A stretch of DNA of 25,396 bases from a virus, in the IMG/VR virus record IMGVR_UViG_3300009149_004072, positions 1 through 25,396 of that record. One strand, given 5' to 3'. Each line of letters starts with the position of its first letter. Position 1 is the first letter of the stretch. Positions 6,836 through 22,569 of the stretch are shown in pieces. The notes under the pieces are model-generated. The model worked only from the letters and a program-made list of their open reading frames with translations. It was not told the origin of the DNA and made no database searches. Made by a program: the position numbers and the translations under genes.

Positions 6836-8314
6836 GTGAAAACTCTCCTCCGCTCCACCTTCCGCGTAGACCCCTCCGACGATCCCACCCTCTTCCTCCG
6901 CAATGCCCAAGCCCTCGCTGACTCTGCCCTGGGGTTCAACGTTCCTGAGGAGGAGGTTCTCTGGAAGTGGATCCAGGACTTCGTCTCCCAGTACCATCAC
7001 GTCCCGGACATCTCAACGCTCCGCGGCCATTTCGAGTCCGTCGGACAGCTGCCCGTCGTGGATCGCCTCGATGCTCTCGCCATTGAGAGGGCTCGGACGC
7101 AAGGAGACTTTCTCAAGCTGATGGAGGTCCGCATCGAGGAGCGGCGCCTCAAGATGACCACCGAGATCCTCCGGGAGGCCAGCAACATCGCCCTCACCGG
7201 CGTGACCATCAAAGAGGGCCGGAAAGAGCTGCACCTGCGGGGGCCGATTCATGCTCTCCGGTATGTCGTGGACAAGGCACCCGAGGTCGTGGCCCCTTCC
7301 TCGGGGATGAGGCTTTCGGGCAACGTCACCGCAGACGGGGACTCCTTTAGCCGCGAGTACGAACGCGTCGAAGCAGACCCCCTCGCCGGGTTGGGGCAGT
7401 TGACCGGCATCGAACAGATGGACAACGCACTGAAGGGGTCCAAGAGAGGGGAGTTGTGGACTCACTCCGCTTTTACCGGCGGCCTGAAGTCCACCTTCGC
7501 CATCAACTGGCACTACAACCAAGCTGTTTTCTACAAGCACTCCTCCATCCTGTACTCCCTGGAGATGCCCTACCCCCAGGTTCGCCGCATCTTGATGGGG
7601 ATCCACACGGCCCACCCGAAGTTCGAAGCCGAGCGGAAGAAGCGAGGGATCAAGCGGTGCCTCCACTACGAGAAGATCCGAGATGGGGAACTCACCCCAG
7701 AAGAGAAGGAGTTCTTGTTCACGGTGGTTGTGCCTGACCTGGAAGATCCGGCCAACATGTACGGCAACCTGCACATCGAGGTCTCCAACCCGGACAAATC
7801 GGATTTCAACATCAACGACCTGCGCTCGAAGTCCGAGCTGCTGTTCAACAAGGACCCTGCCATCCGGATGCTGACCATCGATCACGTCGGCCTCATGTCG
7901 TCCCGAGAGAGGTACAGCAACACGACCGAGAAGCTGAACGAAATCATCCGGGACGCCAAGAAGTTGGCCATGAACTTCAACCGTGGCCTGGGGATCGCCG
8001 TCAACGCGCTCTTCCAGATCTCACGGGAAGGCTTCAAAGCCGCCGAGAAGAACGGGGGTCGGTACAACCTCACTCACCTCAGCTATGCCAACGAGGCAGA
8101 GAGGTCGTCGGACATCGTCACCGCATCCTACGTGGACCAGGAGCTGGAGGACTCCAACCTCGTCAAGTTCCAGTGCCTGAAGTCTCGGGACAACGCCAAG
8201 TTTAAGGATTTTTATGCAGGCGTTCTTTGGCCCTGTCGCCGTATCTACTGGGTGCACGATGTGACGCCGGATCAGGCCAAGAAAACGGGCGCAGACCTCG
8301 ACTTGGGCTTGTAG
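6836..8314 (+). CDS. DnaB-like replicative DNA helicase
   Basis: Ring helicase that would unwind the phage replication fork, 492 residues. GTG at 6836 has GGAGGGGG 7 bases upstream. The N-terminal about 180 residues are helical, as in DnaB-type proteins. The RecA-like motor follows: Walker A region AFTGGLKST (residues 212-220), a SLEMP segment (H1a-like, as in DnaB family SxEM), Walker B LTIDHVGLM with D349, then NALFQISREG and a C-terminal KSRDN segment typical of phage helicases. Oddity: the residue before the P-loop Lys is Leu (L217) where most have Gly. Placed between the loader-like gene and the primase zinc-domain gene, directly upstream of the polymerase. Confidence 0.88.
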   Translation: MKTLLRSTFRVDPSDDPTLFLRNAQALADSALGFNVPEEEVLWKWIQDFVSQYHHVPDISTLRGHFESVGQLPVVDRLDALAIERARTQGDFLKLMEVRIEERRLKMTTEILREASNIALTGVTIKEGRKELHLRGPIHALRYVVDKAPEVVAPSSGMRLSGNVTADGDSFSREYERVEADPLAGLGQLTGIEQMDNALKGSKRGELWTHSAFTGGLKSTFAINWHYNQAVFYKHSSILYSLEMPYPQVRRILMGIHTAHPKFEAERKKRGIKRCLHYEKIRDGELTPEEKEFLFTVVVPDLEDPANMYGNLHIEVSNPDKSDFNINDLRSKSELLFNKDPAIRMLTIDHVGLMSSRERYSNTTEKLNEIIRDAKKLAMNFNRGLGIAVNALFQISREGFKAAEKNGGRYNLTHLSYANEAERSSDIVTASYVDQELEDSNLVKFQCLKSRDNAKFKDFYAGVLWPCRRIYWVHDVTPDQAKKTGADLDLGL

Positions 8315-8575
8315 ATGGGTCGCGGACGCCAGGCTGCCGACCGAATCCGTGAGGAGATCCCAATCGTCAACGTCCTCGCGGACTATGGCTACGAGGTCTA
8401 CCTGGACGGGGGAGATCACGAACAGCAGTTTTCCTGCGACCTGCATGGAGACGGCCGAGACGGCAAGCCCTCGGCACGCCTCTACCCCGACAACAACCAG
8501 TTCTTCTGCTTTGCCTGTGCCAGGTCCAGGGACGCTATCGCACTGGTGCGGGAGAAGGAGGGCGTGTCCTTCTGA
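8315..8575 (+). CDS. CHC2-type primase zinc domain, 5' fragment ending at an in-frame TGA
   Basis: The ATG follows the helicase stop directly. The 86-residue product is a CHC2 zinc-binding domain like that at the N-terminus of DnaG primases: IPIVNVLADYGYEV, then the ligands C41 and H44 (CDLH), a KPSARLYPDNNQFF strand segment, and C65 and C68 (CFAC), followed by RDAIALVREKEGVSF. In the family this is followed by a residue that is often Arg, then a helix of the form EAxxxLExRYGL. Here the next codon is TGA, and the same frame continues at once with DAVKLLEKRYGLAPLPW. So this is either a truncated gene or the first half of a 198-codon gene read through a stop. It would recognise template DNA during priming. 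Confidence 0.85.
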   Translation: MGRGRQAADRIREEIPIVNVLADYGYEVYLDGGDHEQQFSCDLHGDGRDGKPSARLYPDNNQFFCFACARSRDAIALVREKEGVSF

Positions 8576-8581
8576 GATGCG

Positions 8582-8911
8582 GTGAAGCTCCTAGAGAAGC
8601 GGTACGGGCTCGCACCACTTCCATGGTCACCCGAGGAAGAGCCTCCTGAGAAGGTCCTCTCAACGGCCATGGCCGCGGCTCTCAACCCGCGAGAGACTCC
8701 AGAGATGGCCTTGGAGCGGGTCGCCAAGTTTTTGATGGGGCTGTGTCAGGATCGATCTTTGACTCCCCAGCGGCTTGCGGGGTTCTGGGAGGCCCATGAT
8801 CGGGTAGTCGTCTTCTTGAAGGACGGCGGCGACTCGACCCAAGCCCACACGATGGCCCACCGGGTATTGGCCGCCGCCAAAGACGCATTGAAAGAGGATT
8901 ACCCCACGTGA
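8582..8911 (+). CDS. CHC2 primase-domain protein, 3' part in the same frame after the TGA
   Basis: This reading frame is identical to that of the gene before it and separated only by TGA plus two codons. Its first residues (VKLLEKRYGLAPLPW) complete the helix that closes the CHC2 domain, so it is not an independent gene by content. GTG at 8582 could allow reinitiation, but no good ribosome-binding site precedes it. The rest is helical (ALERVAKFLMGLCQ, LAGFWEAHDRVVVFLKDG, MAHRVLAAAKDALKE). The TGA at its end overlaps the GTG of the polymerase gene (GTGA). Possible explanations are a recent nonsense change (for example CGA to TGA), readthrough, or a genuine two-piece protein. Confidence 0.72.
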   Translation: MKLLEKRYGLAPLPWSPEEEPPEKVLSTAMAAALNPRETPEMALERVAKFLMGLCQDRSLTPQRLAGFWEAHDRVVVFLKDGGDSTQAHTMAHRVLAAAKDALKEDYPT

Positions 8912-11799
8912 GTGAGATTCACTTCCTGGACCAGCTCGTTGAAATTGGGCGCCCCAACGTTGAGATGAAGCCCTGGATGAGGGACGTCGAGATGATTCTG
9001 GGGACGGTCGACCTCTTGGATCAGATCGCAGAGGAGTGCATCGCTTCGGGCAGGTTCGGCCTCGACCTGGAGACCACGGGCCTCGACCAGCGAGCCTTCC
9101 CTCTGCACGAAGGCGGGCCTCTCTCCACCGTGGACAAGATCGTGGGGTTCTGCGTCGCCCCCACGACATCCAAGGGCTACTACATCCCGGTTCGGCACAA
9201 AGAGCAGGAAGGCGACGCCAAAACGAATGTGCCTCCTCGACTCGTGGTCGCCATGATCAACCGCATCCAGGCGGGGGGTGCGATCGCCGTCTTCCACAAC
9301 GCGAAGTTCGACCAGAAGTTCCTTCAGTACGAGTCCTCGGGTCGAGCCGGCGAGTGGGACGATCAGAAGCTCTGGGACGACACCCTGATCCTCGCCTATC
9401 TCCGGAACAGCCGCGAGCGACAGAAGAACCTGAAGTACCTCTCCAAGATGGAGTTGGACCGGGAGATGGTCGAGCTGGAGCAGCTCTTCTTGCCCGAGCA
9501 GGTGAAGGCGAAGCAGCTGAACTTCTCGACCCTGGACCCCAAGTGGGAGCCCGTCATCTGGTATGCCGCCGCTGACGCGATCAACACTCTGGCCCTGTAC
9601 GACATCCTGGCACCCCAGGTCCTGGTCAAGGACAAGCACGGATGGACGCAGAAGACGGTCTACCAGATCGAGCAGATCTGCTCGACGGCGACGCGGTGGA
9701 TGGAGCAGTGCCGGATCTACATCGACCGGCCGAAGCTCATCGCCCTGATCCGGTTGGGCCAGAAGGAGTGGTGGGAGTGTCTCCAGGACGTGTACACCTC
9801 AGTGGGTGAGGCTCTGGATCGGGACGTACGGCCTGGCTGGGTCCATTCGATGGCGCCCTACGACCACACCATCCTCGATCCGGACTACATGGGGGCTCGG
9901 GAGCTGGCAAAGCGTCAGGCGATGCCGGATGCTCGACCCACGGTCAAGAAGTCGGTGCCCCAGCTCACGAACCCCAAGATCAGGGAGTCGGTCGTCTTCC
10001 CCGCGGCCTACGACATCACCATTCCAGCCGAGTTCGGGCTGATGCTCCGGGAGCTTGGGGTGGAGGGCCTGGAGGCGACGTTGAAGTCCGGCCAGGTGGC
10101 GACCGCAAAGGATGTGCTGGAGCGCATCATCGAGCGTGCAGGCGACAAACACATCTGGATGAAGTCGGTCAAGCGGTTCCGTGAGGTCGCCAAGGCTCTC
10201 GGGAACGTCCTCATCAACATCTACCTGGACACAACCCCAGAGCGGTCCCCCGACGGCTGCGTCTGGGCCAACTTCAACGGCACCAAGGTGGACACGGGCC
10301 GATTCTCCACTCCCGCGCCGAGGGACAAGAAGCACTTCCACGGCCAGGTCAACTGGAACGTCCAGTCCACCAAGGCGTCTTACTTCAACCCGAAGGATCC
10401 GCCCCCAGACTGTGTGTATCGCCAACGCGAAGTCATCGCGGCTCGGCCGGGATACATCCTCTTCGCCATCGACTTCAGCGGCGTCGAGCTTCGCATCGTC
10501 ACCAACATCTCTGGTGAGCCGAAGTGGCTGGCGGAGTTCTTCCGGTGTGCCTCATGTGAGCATGAGTTCGATCGGGACTCGCTGCCGCCCCCATTCTGCC
10601 CGCACTGCGGGTCCGACAAGATTGGGGACCTCCACTCCCTCACGGCGCTCGGAATCTACGGCGAGAAGATCAAAGACGACGCCAAGATGTTCAAGCTGAA
10701 GAGGCAGGTCGGGAAGATCGTCAACTTCCTCCTCTGCTACGGCGGCTCTGGGATGGCGGTGATGCACGCCACTGGGGTGGATGAGGAGGAAGGCTGGCGG
10801 ATCAAGCGCCAGTTCGATAAGACCTACACGGGCCTCTTGCGCTGGTGGAAGTCCCAGGAAACGACCGCGGAGAAGCAGCTGTACGTGACGACCGCCTTCG
10901 GTCGGAAGTACCCGGTCGAAGACATCATCAGCACGGACAAGCGCTTTCGATCGAAGGCGAAGCGGAACGCGGTCAACGGACCCGTCCAAGGATCGTCCGC
11001 GGACATCATGAAGCTGGCGATGGGTCTCCTCTACCGGGAGTTCAAGCGTCGTGGCTGGATCGATCGGGGCAACGGACTCCCTGACCTGGTCCTGATGGTC
11101 ATCACCATCCACGATGAGTTGGTCTTCGAGGTCCACGAGTCCATCGTGGCCGTGGCCATCCCGGTGATCGAGCGCATCATGTGCCAGGACACATGCAAGA
11201 GTCTGGGTTGGGCGATCCCCCTGAAGGTCGACATCGAGTTCGGAGAGAACTGGACGGTCCCCAACAACCTGACCGAGATGACGTGGAATAAGGGTGGCGG
11301 TACCTGGACGCCCCACATGGTGTCCCTGTACCCCGACCGGTATGTGAATTACTTGAGGTGCGGCGGGAAGCCCGTGGACGGGGAGATCCCCGAGCCGGCC
11401 GCTTTCCAAGTTCTCCCGGGACCTGTAGAGGCAGCCCCTGCGGCACAGGAGGCAGCTCCTGCGTCCCCCCAGGTCTCCCCTGAGCCTTCCACTACCTCTC
11501 CCGAGCCTTCAGCCCCCACGCCCCCTCAGGCGCTTTCTTCGACACCTGATCCGAAGCCCGCTCCTCCCGCCCCTTCGCCCAAGCCGACGAAGGAAGGGAA
11601 CGCTTTCGTCTTCACGATCCCCCAGCACCAGATGACGCCGGAGAATGCCGTCCGTCTCGCGCGGGTAGTGTCCCGCTGTGTCGGCCGGGGGATGGACATC
11701 CTTCGCGTCCGAGATGATCAGGGGAATGACCTCCTCGGGAGAGACGTGAAAGTTGCCTACGAAGAGTTCAGGGTGATCGCAGCCTACGAGGGCCTGTGA
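8908..11799 (+). CDS. Family A DNA polymerase with 3'-5' exonuclease, zinc-ribbon insert and C-terminal extra domain
   Basis: Phage replicative DNA polymerase, 963 residues. The proofreading domain is complete (DEDDy type): LDLETTG with D53 and E55, HNAKFD with D135, and YAAAD with Y219 and D223. Polymerase motif A is DFSGVELR (522-529; the usual form is DYSQIELR), motif B is R599-x3-K603 with NF at 606-607 and YG at 611-612, and motif C is HDE at 735-737. Phe607 at the O-helix position predicts discrimination against dideoxynucleotides. Between motifs A and B sits an extra zinc ribbon (C547, C550, C564, C567). After about residue 828 comes a Pro/Ala/Ser-rich linker to 895 and a compact C-terminal domain (896-963). 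No 5'-nuclease domain is present. GTG start overlaps the preceding stop. Confidence 0.96.
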   Translation: MSEIHFLDQLVEIGRPNVEMKPWMRDVEMILGTVDLLDQIAEECIASGRFGLDLETTGLDQRAFPLHEGGPLSTVDKIVGFCVAPTTSKGYYIPVRHKEQEGDAKTNVPPRLVVAMINRIQAGGAIAVFHNAKFDQKFLQYESSGRAGEWDDQKLWDDTLILAYLRNSRERQKNLKYLSKMELDREMVELEQLFLPEQVKAKQLNFSTLDPKWEPVIWYAAADAINTLALYDILAPQVLVKDKHGWTQKTVYQIEQICSTATRWMEQCRIYIDRPKLIALIRLGQKEWWECLQDVYTSVGEALDRDVRPGWVHSMAPYDHTILDPDYMGARELAKRQAMPDARPTVKKSVPQLTNPKIRESVVFPAAYDITIPAEFGLMLRELGVEGLEATLKSGQVATAKDVLERIIERAGDKHIWMKSVKRFREVAKALGNVLINIYLDTTPERSPDGCVWANFNGTKVDTGRFSTPAPRDKKHFHGQVNWNVQSTKASYFNPKDPPPDCVYRQREVIAARPGYILFAIDFSGVELRIVTNISGEPKWLAEFFRCASCEHEFDRDSLPPPFCPHCGSDKIGDLHSLTALGIYGEKIKDDAKMFKLKRQVGKIVNFLLCYGGSGMAVMHATGVDEEEGWRIKRQFDKTYTGLLRWWKSQETTAEKQLYVTTAFGRKYPVEDIISTDKRFRSKAKRNAVNGPVQGSSADIMKLAMGLLYREFKRRGWIDRGNGLPDLVLMVITIHDELVFEVHESIVAVAIPVIERIMCQDTCKSLGWAIPLKVDIEFGENWTVPNNLTEMTWNKGGGTWTPHMVSLYPDRYVNYLRCGGKPVDGEIPEPAAFQVLPGPVEAAPAAQEAAPASPQVSPEPSTTSPEPSAPTPPQALSSTPDPKPAPPAPSPKPTKEGNAFVFTIPQHQMTPENAVRLARVVSRCVGRGMDILRVRDDQGNDLLGRDVKVAYEEFRVIAAYEGL

Positions 11800-16609: not shown

Positions 16610-17472
16610 TGCCCAAAGACGCGATTGACAGCATGATTGAGGGCTGGGCTTCCGGCCCCTCGGCACCGCCAACCCCCAAGCCTCCTGTCGAGAAAGCTGC
16701 TGTCGTGGAGGAGACTCCCTCGGGGACCCCGCTCGACGCCGCCACAGCCATCCGCCAAGCGCTCCTGAAGAACACCGGGCGCAGGAAGCATGTGAAGACC
16801 TGGGCCTCCGAGGCACGGAAGGTCTTGGGGCTCTCACGCCTCACTCCGAAGAGGTATGGCGAGGTGCTCGCCGCGGGGTTCTCTGCCGGTCTCTTCCAGC
16901 TGGACGAGACGAGCCTCTCGTTCCCCATCCTGGTGGCGACGGAACCCGCTCTGGAAGAGGAGCCCGAAGGAGAGCCTCCGAGCATGGAGTTGCTGGAGGC
17001 TGCTGGCGACCTGGCGGAATCGGACCTAAAGAGCCGGAGTTTCATCCGAGAGGAAGAGGGCGCACATCACCCTGAGTTCACTCCCCCGTCCCACTTGGCC
17101 TGTGGGCACTGGGACCTACAGTCGGTGCCGGACCCCACAGCCCCCGAGCCGCCCGCAGAGGACTACCAGAGGAAGGTCCAGACCATATCGGTGTCTGTCG
17201 AGTCCCCTGAATCGTGTCCGAGCTGTGCGGCGAGGAAGCCCGGTGATCCTCGCTACCAGGAGGGGGAGTACCGCAAGCCGGTCCCGCTTGCTTCCCGGAG
17301 GACTCCCGAGAAGTCTGCTAGATCTTACCCAGGATTCCCGGGTCTTTGTACGGACCCGGAGACCGGCTTCTACATCGGAGGAATCGCGAACGACTGCTCC
17401 AAGTACCATCCTGGGAAGGAGCGATGCGTGTTCCATGTGCCCAAATCCCCGAAGGAGGTCAACGATGTCTGA
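16609..17472 (+). CDS. Cysteine-rich protein with possible helix-turn-helix, 287 residues
   Basis: ATG at 16609 (TGATG) is preferred over the upstream ATG/GTG frame from 16567, which overlaps the preceding gene deeply. After a Pro/Ala-rich N-terminus (residues 15-40) comes a helical region, about 42-110 (AIRQALLKN, TWASEARKVLGLSRLTPKRY, VLAAGFSAGLFQL), that could be a winged-helix-like domain. Acidic and Pro-rich linkers follow. The C-terminal half has cysteines at 165, 203, 206, 247, 263 and 273, including CPSC and a GLCTDP/NDCSKY/ERCVFH set that suggests structural zinc. No family recognised. Confidence 0.72.
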   Translation: MPKDAIDSMIEGWASGPSAPPTPKPPVEKAAVVEETPSGTPLDAATAIRQALLKNTGRRKHVKTWASEARKVLGLSRLTPKRYGEVLAAGFSAGLFQLDETSLSFPILVATEPALEEEPEGEPPSMELLEAAGDLAESDLKSRSFIREEEGAHHPEFTPPSHLACGHWDLQSVPDPTAPEPPAEDYQRKVQTISVSVESPESCPSCAARKPGDPRYQEGEYRKPVPLASRRTPEKSARSYPGFPGLCTDPETGFYIGGIANDCSKYHPGKERCVFHVPKSPKEVNDV

Positions 17473-17908: not shown

Positions 17909-19090
17909 TTGAGCATCGAGATCCGAGGGGGGTGGTCCTGCCCCCACCTGGTGATGGAAGAGCCGGTGTCCCTCGGGACAGACCGCCGCTCTGTGCAGAC
18001 TCGTGCACCGATTTCGGGCGCTGCCAGTGTCCGGATCCTGATCAACGACTCGGTCTACGTCCCTGCTGGGGGCCTCAACTCCCAGGCGGTGCTGACCTCG
18101 GCGATGGCCTCCCCCTACCGCATTGAGAGATGCCGAGGAACCGTCGGCCCTGACGGAAACATCTTCACCGTCACCACGGGGACGGGGTCCGCATCCGTCC
18201 GGCTCCCCGAGGGGAGCAGACTTCCCCTAGCTCAAATCCAGAGAGTGTTGCGCCTCTCACCTGTCAACGACCTGGTGACGGTCACCGAGTTGAACGGCGC
18301 CTTGAGCTTGGTCGAGGCCAACGATGCAGGACCCACGAGCTTCATTCGGGTCTCGGGGCGAGCTGCCGCCTCTCTGGGGTTTGTCCAGGTGGGTGCCCGA
18401 GGCCAGAAGGTCTACCCAGGGTGGGACCTTCTGGCGCGGTCGGACATCAACCCGATCATCTTCCCGAAGGGGGTAAAGATCGTCCCGGCTCGGTACCCCA
18501 TCTTCAAGGAAGAAGTTCGAGGGAACCCCACGATCAAGGCTACCTACGCGTCGATGCCCGAGCGGTGTCCTCGGTGTGGGGCCACCTATGTGGAGAACGA
18601 TTATCGGTTCGACCCCACGGGCGCGATCATCACCATCGAGAACGAGGACCTCCTGTACCAGGCGTGCCTCAAGGCCATCCTCACCGTCCAAGCGTCCAAC
18701 CCCTTCCACCCTTCCTACGGGTCCAAGATCATGACCCGGATCGGACGGAAGATCGTAGGGGCCTCGGCTTCCCTGGTGAAGGAAGACGTGATCAACGCGC
18801 TTACCCAGGTCAAGAACCTCCAGGGCGGTCAGCGCATCTACCAGAGGGTGAAGGATCGGGAGCTGCTGTTCGCTATCCAAAGCGTCGATGTGCGCCCCTC
18901 GGCGGACGATCCTACGGTCTACTTCGTGGACTGCATTGTGCGAAGCGGATCCAACAAGCCGGTGGCGCTGACCACCGTTTTCACGGTCCCCGGGGCCGTC
19001 GCCCTGGCGGGATCCAACAACCAGGTCTTGGGGCTGGAGGCTGCCGGCCTGACGGTCGAACAATCCAGGCGGCTCTTGCTGGATGGGTAG
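17909..19090 (+). CDS. Baseplate wedge protein with gp25-like domain, 393 residues
   Basis: Probable component of a contractile-tail baseplate. The C-terminal half, roughly residues 230-375, matches the gp25/W (baseplate lysozyme-like) plan: EDLLYQACLKAILTVQASNPF, then HPSYGSKIMTRIGRKI, with the conserved NPF and YGS, followed by an amphipathic helix and VRPSADDPTVYFVDCIV. A CPRC pair precedes it at 220-223. The N-terminal 200 residues are beta-rich with no known domain (VRILINDSVYVP, GNIFTVTTGTGSASVRLP). TTG at 17909 has GGAGG 4 bases and AGGAG 11 bases upstream. It lies directly before the J-like gene, as in myovirus clusters where gp25-like and gp6/J-like genes are adjacent. Longer than a typical gp25 of about 130 residues. 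Confidence 0.72.
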   Translation: MSIEIRGGWSCPHLVMEEPVSLGTDRRSVQTRAPISGAASVRILINDSVYVPAGGLNSQAVLTSAMASPYRIERCRGTVGPDGNIFTVTTGTGSASVRLPEGSRLPLAQIQRVLRLSPVNDLVTVTELNGALSLVEANDAGPTSFIRVSGRAAASLGFVQVGARGQKVYPGWDLLARSDINPIIFPKGVKIVPARYPIFKEEVRGNPTIKATYASMPERCPRCGATYVENDYRFDPTGAIITIENEDLLYQACLKAILTVQASNPFHPSYGSKIMTRIGRKIVGASASLVKEDVINALTQVKNLQGGQRIYQRVKDRELLFAIQSVDVRPSADDPTVYFVDCIVRSGSNKPVALTTVFTVPGAVALAGSNNQVLGLEAAGLTVEQSRRLLLDG

Positions 19091-19098
19091 GATGATCC

Positions 19099-22000
19099 AT
19101 GGCTACTGAACCCCAAATCCTCGGCCCAGACGGTGTTCTGCGGTCCAAAGTCAACTTCTCTACCTCTGTGGAGAGCCGCTTCACCTCGGGCACTGTTCCT
19201 ACAGATGCCGTTGACGTGCTGGTGTCGATCAACGGCTCGGGCTTCTCCTCCGATCCCGACCTCCTTCAATGGGGGGATGGTCAGTGGGTCGTCCCAAACC
19301 CTACAAGTGAGCCCAACGGCCTTCTTCTCCTTCCGGGAGTGAACACCATCGCTGTCCGTGCGATCCGGCCCTCAGGGTCGGTGACGGCGGACGCCACAGC
19401 GACCATCCGGCTGGTGTCCGATGCCGATGTGGGTGTCGTTGCCGCAGTACCGACGAACATCTCCCTGGCGCAGGAGGGCCGCTCGGTTCTGATCTCGGCT
19501 GAGTCCTCTTCCAACGCGGGCTTCCAGGGGATGAACTTCTACGCGTCCCTCAACGCTGGCGGTGGGGTTTCCGGGTACACTCGCCTCAACATCAACACGG
19601 TGTCCGAGGGGCTGACAACGACGGAGTCTGAGGAGTTCGGCACCCTCGACGTGAACGCCGAGGTGGTTGTGGATGCCGAGGGCGTCCCTGTGGCCGACCC
19701 TCTGTTCGTACGGCTCCAGGGGCAGCAGGAGGACGAGAACGCCGCCCTGATCCAGCAGGACTTCAACGAGACCTTCGAGGTCCCTGAGACGGCGCGCACC
19801 CTCCGCTACCAGATGGTCCTCAACTCGGTCCGGGACGTGACCCTCTACCAGTTCGACCACAATCGCACGGCCAACTCGACTTCGAGTCCCGCAACGGTCC
19901 AGGTAGGCAGCTTCTCGGCGATCTCCAACGAGACGCCGCTCTATTACGTGGTCACCGCGGTCTACTTTGACGTCACCCAGAACCTGGAGTTCGAGTCCTC
20001 CTTCTCCGAGGAAGTCCAGGGCAACCCGACGACGGTGACCACAGCTCTGGGGTCGTTCCCTTCCGTCTCCCGCGGCGATGTTGTCGAGCAGTTCATCACC
20101 TCGATCTTCCGCTCCAATCCGCAGATCAAGGTCGAAACAGGGTCGATCCTCCGAGATACGGTCATCGACCCGTTCTCCAACGAGTCCGAGCGCATCCGCT
20201 TCATCCTCGACTTCTTTCACCGTGCTCGGACCCCCGCACTGTTGCTTCAGATCGACGATCCGAACGGCACCGGCGTCTCCACACCAGTCTCCCAAAGCCC
20301 CTACAAGCAGGGCCTCCAGGCAGCCTTCTACCTGGAGAGCGCGGCGGCGGTCCAGAACGTTATCAACTCCGCCTTTGAGGCATCTGCCAGCAACTTCGGT
20401 CGGCGTCGCCGCACAGGCGTCGCCGCACAGGGGGAGGTCACTTTCTTCACCTCGCGGCGCCCAACAGCCACCCTCCCCATCCCCCTCGGGACCTTGGTGG
20501 GCGGTGGGGGAGTTCAGTTCCAGACGACGCGTGCAGCCTCGATCGCTTTTGAGAGGCTGGCCAGCTTCTTCGACCCCGTGTCGGGACGGTACTTGGTCAC
20601 CGTACCAGTGAAGGCGGCCACTACCGGCTCCGCGGGGAACGTGGGCACGGGGCAGGTGTCGACGGTGACCTCGTCTCTTCCCGGGTCCCTGTCGGTGGTC
20701 AACACCGCACCGATGGCGGGCGGGAAGGATCAGGAGTCAAACCTCGACCTCACGGTCAGGACCAACAACGCCTTGGCCTCGGTGGACTCGGGCACTGCTC
20801 GTGGCTACCTCCAGACGGCTGCGGACGTGGCAGGGGTGGTCAAGGCCAACGTCATCACTGCGGGGGACCCTCTGATGCAGCGGGACCTCGATTCTGCCGG
20901 CGTCCACAAGGGCGGCAAGGTGGACATCTGGGTCCAGGGCTCCAACATCGCGACGGTCACGGACACCTTCGCCTTCTCCTTTGAGATCGCCCAGGACATC
21001 CAATTCGAGATCATTGGGGACGTGTCCGAGTACCGGTTCCGTGCCCGCGACTCGTCGCTCTCCGAGGCGAACCCCATCGTGGAGATGCTGGACAACCCGA
21101 CGATCGGCTACGAGTTCCGGAACGCGTCGACAGGCGACGTGTTCGATCTGTCCGGCGTGACCATCACCTCGTTCGACACCATCCAGCTGGACACCTCCGT
21201 CATCCCACCACAGCCTTCTGTGGATATGACGGATGTTGTCCTGGGCTCCTACAGGCGTCGGGTGGGCAACCTCTTCGTCCTGCCGCGTCAACCGGTGGCG
21301 TCTATCACCTCGGTCGCGGGGACGGTGTCTGGGACGCTCCCCTCCGACTCGTACCTGCTCGTCCACCCGGACGCACCGCTGGCCACTGGACGGTCGGTTC
21401 TGGCTCGGGACTACCTCCAGGTCTTCGGCTACCTCGATGAAGATGGAAACCAGGTCCCCTCTGGGGCAACCCTCCCGGTCGTGGACGAGACCCACGTCCT
21501 CATCGGCCAGTACCCCGAGTTCCTCGACAGCCTTGGTGCCAACTTCCTCACCTTGGTGGTGACCAACGAAGCAGGGACCGTCACCTACAAGGGACCCAAC
21601 GACCCGGGTGGCGACCCCGACTACACGGTGAACCTCGGGACCCAGACCCAAGCGCTGTCCCTCACACGGACCGATACGGGGAACATCCCTTCAGGGGCGA
21701 CGGTCCTGGTCAGCTACGAACACGATGAGAACTTCACCGTCACCTACACGACCAATCTCATCGTCTCGCTCACCCAGGATGCGGTGGACGAGAAGAAGCA
21801 TGCCACGGCGGATGTGGTCGGGAAGGAGGCCATCCCGGTCCCTATCGACGTTGCGGCTACCGTCGTTCTGGCTCGGGGCAGGGATAAGTCCACCGTGGAC
21901 ACCGCCCTCCGAACGAACATGGCGAACTTCTTCGCCAACCTCCGACTGGGGGGCCCTGTCCGCCAGTCGGATGTGATCGACGTGATCGAGCAGACCAGCG

Positions 22001-22569
22001 GCGTATCCTACGTGGTCGTACCCCTCTCCAAGATGGTCCGGGCCGAGGGCGCTCAAGTGGTCCGGGAGGCTGTCTCAACGGACACCGCGGCCGAGAGCAC
22101 CTTCGTGCAGGTCTACTCGACCAACGCTGCCTCGGTCTACCTGCTGAACAACACTCTCTCCGCCGCTACGACGGATGGAGGAGGGCCAGACGGAGCCTTC
22201 AAGGGCGTCTTCCAGGATGACATCACCCTGAACCTCCTGGATGCCTCCGCCTCCTTGGAGTCTCTGGGTGTCGTCCCTGGTCGTGCCTACATCATCGGAT
22301 CTGGGGGGCGCTCCCTCGAAGGCATCTCCGACGACACGACCTTGATCTCCCAGGGCTTCGTCACCGCCTCTGCGATCGAAGCTCGTAGGAAAGAGCTGAC
22401 TTCCAATCACATCCTCGTCTCTCTGGCAGTGGGCCAGGCTCCAACGTCGTTCAGCTACGCAAGCACCTACATCGTCGGTGTGGACTCGGGCGCCAAGAAC
22501 ACGGACCCGAGCGGCGCGGCCTACCTGGTGGCGGGCGACCTCCTCTTCACCTACGACGAGGACCGGTAA
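19099..22569 (+). CDS. Baseplate protein J / gp6-like, 1156 residues
   Basis: Large baseplate wedge protein, in the virion. The central part, about residues 430-600, fits the baseplate J family: VAAQGEVTFF, IPLGTLV, VPVKAATTGSAGNVGTGQV, and the diagnostic GGKDQESNLDLTVRTNNALA followed by YLQTAADVAGVV. The N-terminal third has beta-sandwich-like segments (FTSGTVPTDAVDVLVSINGSG and repeats of similar hydrophobic strands) and the C-terminal third, from about 860, has VAATVVLARGRDKSTVDTA and SDVIDVIEQTSGVSYVVV, also J-like. It is much longer than P2 gpJ (about 300) and T4 gp6 (about 660), so it carries extra N- and C-terminal modules. The start at 19099 has a TAGGAT-like site. Encoded just after the gp25-like gene. 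Confidence 0.85.
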   Translation: MATEPQILGPDGVLRSKVNFSTSVESRFTSGTVPTDAVDVLVSINGSGFSSDPDLLQWGDGQWVVPNPTSEPNGLLLLPGVNTIAVRAIRPSGSVTADATATIRLVSDADVGVVAAVPTNISLAQEGRSVLISAESSSNAGFQGMNFYASLNAGGGVSGYTRLNINTVSEGLTTTESEEFGTLDVNAEVVVDAEGVPVADPLFVRLQGQQEDENAALIQQDFNETFEVPETARTLRYQMVLNSVRDVTLYQFDHNRTANSTSSPATVQVGSFSAISNETPLYYVVTAVYFDVTQNLEFESSFSEEVQGNPTTVTTALGSFPSVSRGDVVEQFITSIFRSNPQIKVETGSILRDTVIDPFSNESERIRFILDFFHRARTPALLLQIDDPNGTGVSTPVSQSPYKQGLQAAFYLESAAAVQNVINSAFEASASNFGRRRRTGVAAQGEVTFFTSRRPTATLPIPLGTLVGGGGVQFQTTRAASIAFERLASFFDPVSGRYLVTVPVKAATTGSAGNVGTGQVSTVTSSLPGSLSVVNTAPMAGGKDQESNLDLTVRTNNALASVDSGTARGYLQTAADVAGVVKANVITAGDPLMQRDLDSAGVHKGGKVDIWVQGSNIATVTDTFAFSFEIAQDIQFEIIGDVSEYRFRARDSSLSEANPIVEMLDNPTIGYEFRNASTGDVFDLSGVTITSFDTIQLDTSVIPPQPSVDMTDVVLGSYRRRVGNLFVLPRQPVASITSVAGTVSGTLPSDSYLLVHPDAPLATGRSVLARDYLQVFGYLDEDGNQVPSGATLPVVDETHVLIGQYPEFLDSLGANFLTLVVTNEAGTVTYKGPNDPGGDPDYTVNLGTQTQALSLTRTDTGNIPSGATVLVSYEHDENFTVTYTTNLIVSLTQDAVDEKKHATADVVGKEAIPVPIDVAATVVLARGRDKSTVDTALRTNMANFFANLRLGGPVRQSDVIDVIEQTSGVSYVVVPLSKMVRAEGAQVVREAVSTDTAAESTFVQVYSTNAASVYLLNNTLSAATTDGGGPDGAFKGVFQDDITLNLLDASASLESLGVVPGRAYIIGSGGRSLEGISDDTTLISQGFVTASAIEARRKELTSNHILVSLAVGQAPTSFSYASTYIVGVDSGAKNTDPSGAAYLVAGDLLFTYDEDR
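20402..20429 (+). repeat. 14-base tandem duplication inside the baseplate J gene
   Basis: GGCGTCGCCGCACA occurs twice in direct succession (20402-20415 and 20416-20429). As 14 is not a multiple of 3, the two copies are read in different frames, giving RRRRT then GVAAQ, and the frame after them is the one that carries the J family. Either the second copy arose with a compensating change or the similarity is chance in a GC-rich stretch. Confidence 0.6.

Follow-up and report, generated by a model that had tools for sequence, protein, structure and literature searches.

The locus at 8315-8911 of the IMG/VR virus record analysed here (the window, 25,396 bases) raises the question of whether a lone stop codon separates two genes or interrupts a single one and, if the latter, how it arose. 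As originally predicted, the ORFs at 8315-8575 and 8582-8911 lie in the same frame with a single TGA at 8573-8575 between them, and the translation joined across that TGA reads ...REKEGVSF-stop-DAVKLLEKRYGLAPLPW.... The features of the locus are:

8315..8911, plus strand: gene for a standalone primase zinc-binding (CHC2) protein, cut by one TGA here; PF01807 spans the stop, and the gene is a single continuous ORF in 53 matches
8315..8575, plus strand: N half, 86 codons including the C-x2-H and C-x2-C zinc ligands in the translation, then TGA; scores 31.9 bits alone with the CHC2 profile
8573..8575, plus strand: in-frame TGA, codon 87; TGG (Trp) in the seven closest loci by comparison with relatives
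8576..8911, plus strand: C half, with the last zinc-binding-domain helix and a C-terminal helical bundle (full-length alignment to relatives; predicted model) and its own TGA at the end
8582..8584, plus strand: GTG suggested as a restart; internal to a helix in relatives, none of which starts there

The two-ORF geometry alone is weak evidence, because such arrangements are common in this GC-rich window, where two stop-free stretches of 80 codons or more follow each other in one frame 43 times over the six frames. We accept the split gene as real because the CHC2 profile crosses the stop and the relatives are uninterrupted. The N half by itself gains 8.6 bits on joining to reach 40.5 bits, well past the curated PF01807 cut-off of 24.9, with the match extending to residue 99, in agreement with the earlier proposal that the primase domain runs across the TGA. 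All 33 family members match the same profile, and the zinc ligands C41, H44, C65 and C68 are invariant across 33 sequences. Thus, 8315-8911 is one gene, encoding a standalone primase zinc-binding protein of ~198 residues from a large-phage lineage. With TGA at codon 87, the complete CHC2 domain is not present in one chain, and its last helix is dropped unless the stop is read through.

Relatives were recovered by a polymerase query and by a protein alignment search, the latter yielding 49 viral and 3 genome loci that together with LR745208 make 53 matches, a count that includes near-identical ones and a remote genome match (L072). DNA-level searches of phages and plasmids returned no match to the window, and scans with a single protein, either the C half or DnaB, returned no relatives. 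The genes of the window that give it its context are:

11-1315: helicase, replication block
6836-8314: DnaB-like helicase, replication block
8908-11799: DNA polymerase, replication block, with the CHC2 gene
17909-19090: baseplate-like protein, after the replication block
19099-22569: large conserved protein, after the replication block

The contigs G001 (89.5 kb) and G002 (57 kb) and an uncultured phage of 485 kb, LR745208.1, have these genes too, so the window probably represents part of the genome of a large phage from the same lineage, as judged from gene content. The zinc-binding protein itself resembles PHROG 360 and related phage DNA primase families, matching phrog_360 at 6e-11. All six large-phage records tested also match phrog_360, once each, and the window's copy is the only one with an internal stop. 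Homologues of the zinc-binding protein also occur on two contigs (L070 and L071) binned as uncultured bacterium or Actinomycetota MAG, which are perhaps misbinned phage or a pointer to hosts.

At the position of the stop, every one of the 53 matches has a sense codon within one ORF, and none has a stop. Aligning the homologues at this column thus bore out half of the original expectation, that a sense codon would replace the stop; the residue in the closest relatives proved to be Trp and not Arg. In the tree, the window's protein pairs with those of L021 and L028 (support 99/93) inside a seven-protein clade (support 98/93), and the other six proteins of the clade, which come from seven loci with two identical, have TGG in all cases. 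Since these seven loci are uniform, the ancestral codon at position 87 was most likely TGG, from which TGA is a single transition, and the change is TGG to TGA rather than the CGA to TGA first suggested. Outside the clade the column is tolerant; the residues over the 53 matches are S 10, N 9, G 8, W 7, M 7, H 4, R 2, K 2, P 2, I 1 and V 1. A scan for the pattern REKEG-x-x-F followed by stop or TGG picked up two loci beyond the known relatives. In one (L073), the TGA sits in an unrelated frame with more stops, and in the other (L077) the TGG belongs to an unrelated protein, so the scan provided no second family member with a stop. The idea of an ordinary gene pair is refuted because no relative has two genes.

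The portion of the gene downstream of the stop gives an indication of its age. In the C half, the window shares 45% amino-acid identity with L021, the relative nearest to it, and intact relatives compared across subclades share 30-42%; in the N half the window is 69-77% identical to relatives. We used only amino-acid identity and dN because synonymous sites are saturated, which makes dN/dS unreliable and dS often undefined. By these measures, the window's C half is diverging no faster than that of intact relatives, and G+C by codon position retains the coding pattern in both halves. A C half without excess divergence implies that the stop arose recently, is an error or is suppressed at the level of phenotype. 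The comparison therefore reveals no sign of long decay of the gene, consistent with the earlier reading that the halves are otherwise intact and the event recent, if not an error.

A structure prediction for the full-length protein (mean pLDDT 91, pTM 0.56, from 33 sequences) places helices at residues 86-96, the last of the zinc-binding domain, and 113-195, with residue 87 falling at the start of the former. Among solved structures, the closest in sequence is 1d0q, a DNA primase zinc-binding domain (E 1.5e-08, profile positions 5-103). According to the model, a product of 86 residues would retain all four zinc ligands but would be without the last domain helix and the C-terminal bundle. Like the DnaG zinc-binding domain (PF01807; PDB 1d0q, 2au3), the protein has a CHC2 zinc ribbon and following helices, but unlike DnaG it stands alone: its chain lacks a Toprim core and ends in a helical bundle of its own. 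It is therefore not a complete DnaG primase, in which the zinc-binding domain and the Toprim catalytic core belong to one protein, and there is no Toprim match across the window. A Toprim_2 protein of ~240 residues is encoded far from the CHC2 gene in G003 and LR745208 (L083 1126-1848; L082 1339-2079, minus strand), and is a candidate that may be the catalytic partner of the CHC2 protein in a primase split over distant genes.

We consider it very probable, from the comparison with relatives, that TGA at codon 87 is a private nonsense substitution of TGG, either a real recent mutation or a consensus error. The chance that it is a real mutation is about even; a consensus error is a possibility to be taken seriously though a less likely one, and the conserved genes count against it, as they give no further hint of an assembly error. 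No contig near-identical to the window was found. One base change in the sampled phage population would have converted Trp codon 87 to TGA and, if the change is real, most translation would end after residue 86, so that the product keeps the zinc ribbon but is without the last zinc-binding-domain helix and the C-terminal helical bundle. In favor of the substitution are the lack of any stop among the 53 matches, the uniform TGG of the clade mates, and the failure to find a recoding structure or a tRNA gene. The conserved C half and its coding composition count against it, being compatible with ongoing translation. Also counting against plain truncation is the identity of the lost codon, as leaky UGA decoding rescues Trp codons more easily than any others. 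We infer that the stop has no evolved function; it has the look of a commonplace single-base mutation or an error of assembly, involving no novel genetic mechanism.

Other explanations for the stop can be weighed against this one. That TGA is a sense codon throughout the phage, specifying Trp or selenocysteine, would fit its occurrence at an ancestral Trp position, but 40 of the 41 Trp sites common to G001 and G002 are TGG in the window, the one remaining being the TGA at 8573-8575 itself. Moreover, TGA terminates 20 of the 29 gene models (with the CHC2 gene counted as two), and Cys occurs at the site in none of the relatives. A UGA-to-Trp code would place TGA at conserved Trp positions genome-wide and not at one of 41, so REASSIGNMENT is excluded: TGA is not generally reassigned in the window, as had been anticipated, and we regard phage-wide recoding as having almost no chance of being correct. 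The window's conserved genes contain no further in-frame stops in comparison with three relatives. Apparent internal stops in the codon count stemmed from a gene-model slip at 17469, the correct frame being open. Taken as a base rate, the 50,824 aligned codons of relatives contain no stop within a conserved region; the sole in-frame stop (L030, polymerase query) was discounted because it lies beyond the conserved part, in a proline-rich tail that aligns poorly. Reinitiation at GTG 8582, a suggestion of the original prediction, would instead produce the halves as separate chains that may associate. The GTG lies two codons past the stop, a spacing that fits coupled reinitiation, and primase is annotated over two adjacent genes in some actinobacterial phages. 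However, no relative in the CHC2-protein family has two genes, the cut would land at the start of a predicted helix and split the domain, and there is no suitably spaced ribosome-binding site for this GTG, the AAGGAGG ~20 nt upstream being part of the conserved EKEG codons. Two proteins are thus highly improbable. The Rhodococcus and Mycobacterium phage primases (Bonanza 48/49, AnnaL29 gp61/gp62) are similar in having primase annotated over adjacent genes, the first with CHC2, but they are separate ORFs cut elsewhere, only ~39% identical over the N half, in place of one in-frame stop inside the zinc-binding domain.

Readthrough of the UGA, tolerated or functional, would have the host tRNA-Trp (CCA) or a UGA-reading variant in the host insert Trp at a low level, which would restore the ancestral protein and generate short and long forms. 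It draws support from the lost residue being Trp and from the still-conserved C half, and bacterial tRNA-Trp variants with a 4-bp anticodon stem enhance UGA readthrough in E. coli (PMC13092985). A programmed element is nevertheless unsupported, because the stop is conserved in none of the relatives (0/53) and the 100 nt after it fold no better than shuffles (z = 0.24), giving no stimulatory structure 3' of the stop. Nor did we find a tRNA gene in the window, the loci L002-L004, G001, G002 or G003. A literature search on primases that have in-frame stops and readthrough yielded no results. Overall, we view readthrough as unlikely. Near-cognate background decoding by tRNA-Trp would insert the exact residue that was lost, making it plausible, as a possibility and not a finding, that the CHC2 protein would retain partial function if the TGA is real. 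That the phage population stably keeps UGA at the ancestral Trp codon, with a host that usefully decodes it as Trp, is very doubtful; were it so, the level of full-length primase protein would be tied to host readthrough.

The private substitution offers a calibration for similar cases: when relatives have a sense codon there and other genes are unaffected, one changed base is the best explanation for a solitary in-frame TGA in a phage gene from a metagenome. Should the TGA be real and fixed, the locus would serve as a natural experiment on the ability of leaky UGA-as-Trp decoding to sustain a phage replication gene.

Two further observations concern the relatives. Intein or homing-endonuclease domains occur in three neighboring replication genes of LR745208.1 (L105, L106 and L107; 293818-296670, 284693-289981 and 297557-300556): DnaB has an intein splicing domain, and the polymerase and SNF2 helicase have LAGLIDADG. 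The window's copies are without these domains. The related contig G001, which carries zero tRNA genes, encodes a full-length tmRNA (L012 18317-18683, G001 58317-58683; Rfam RF00023, 91.7 bits) with the tag ANNNNAFRAAA.
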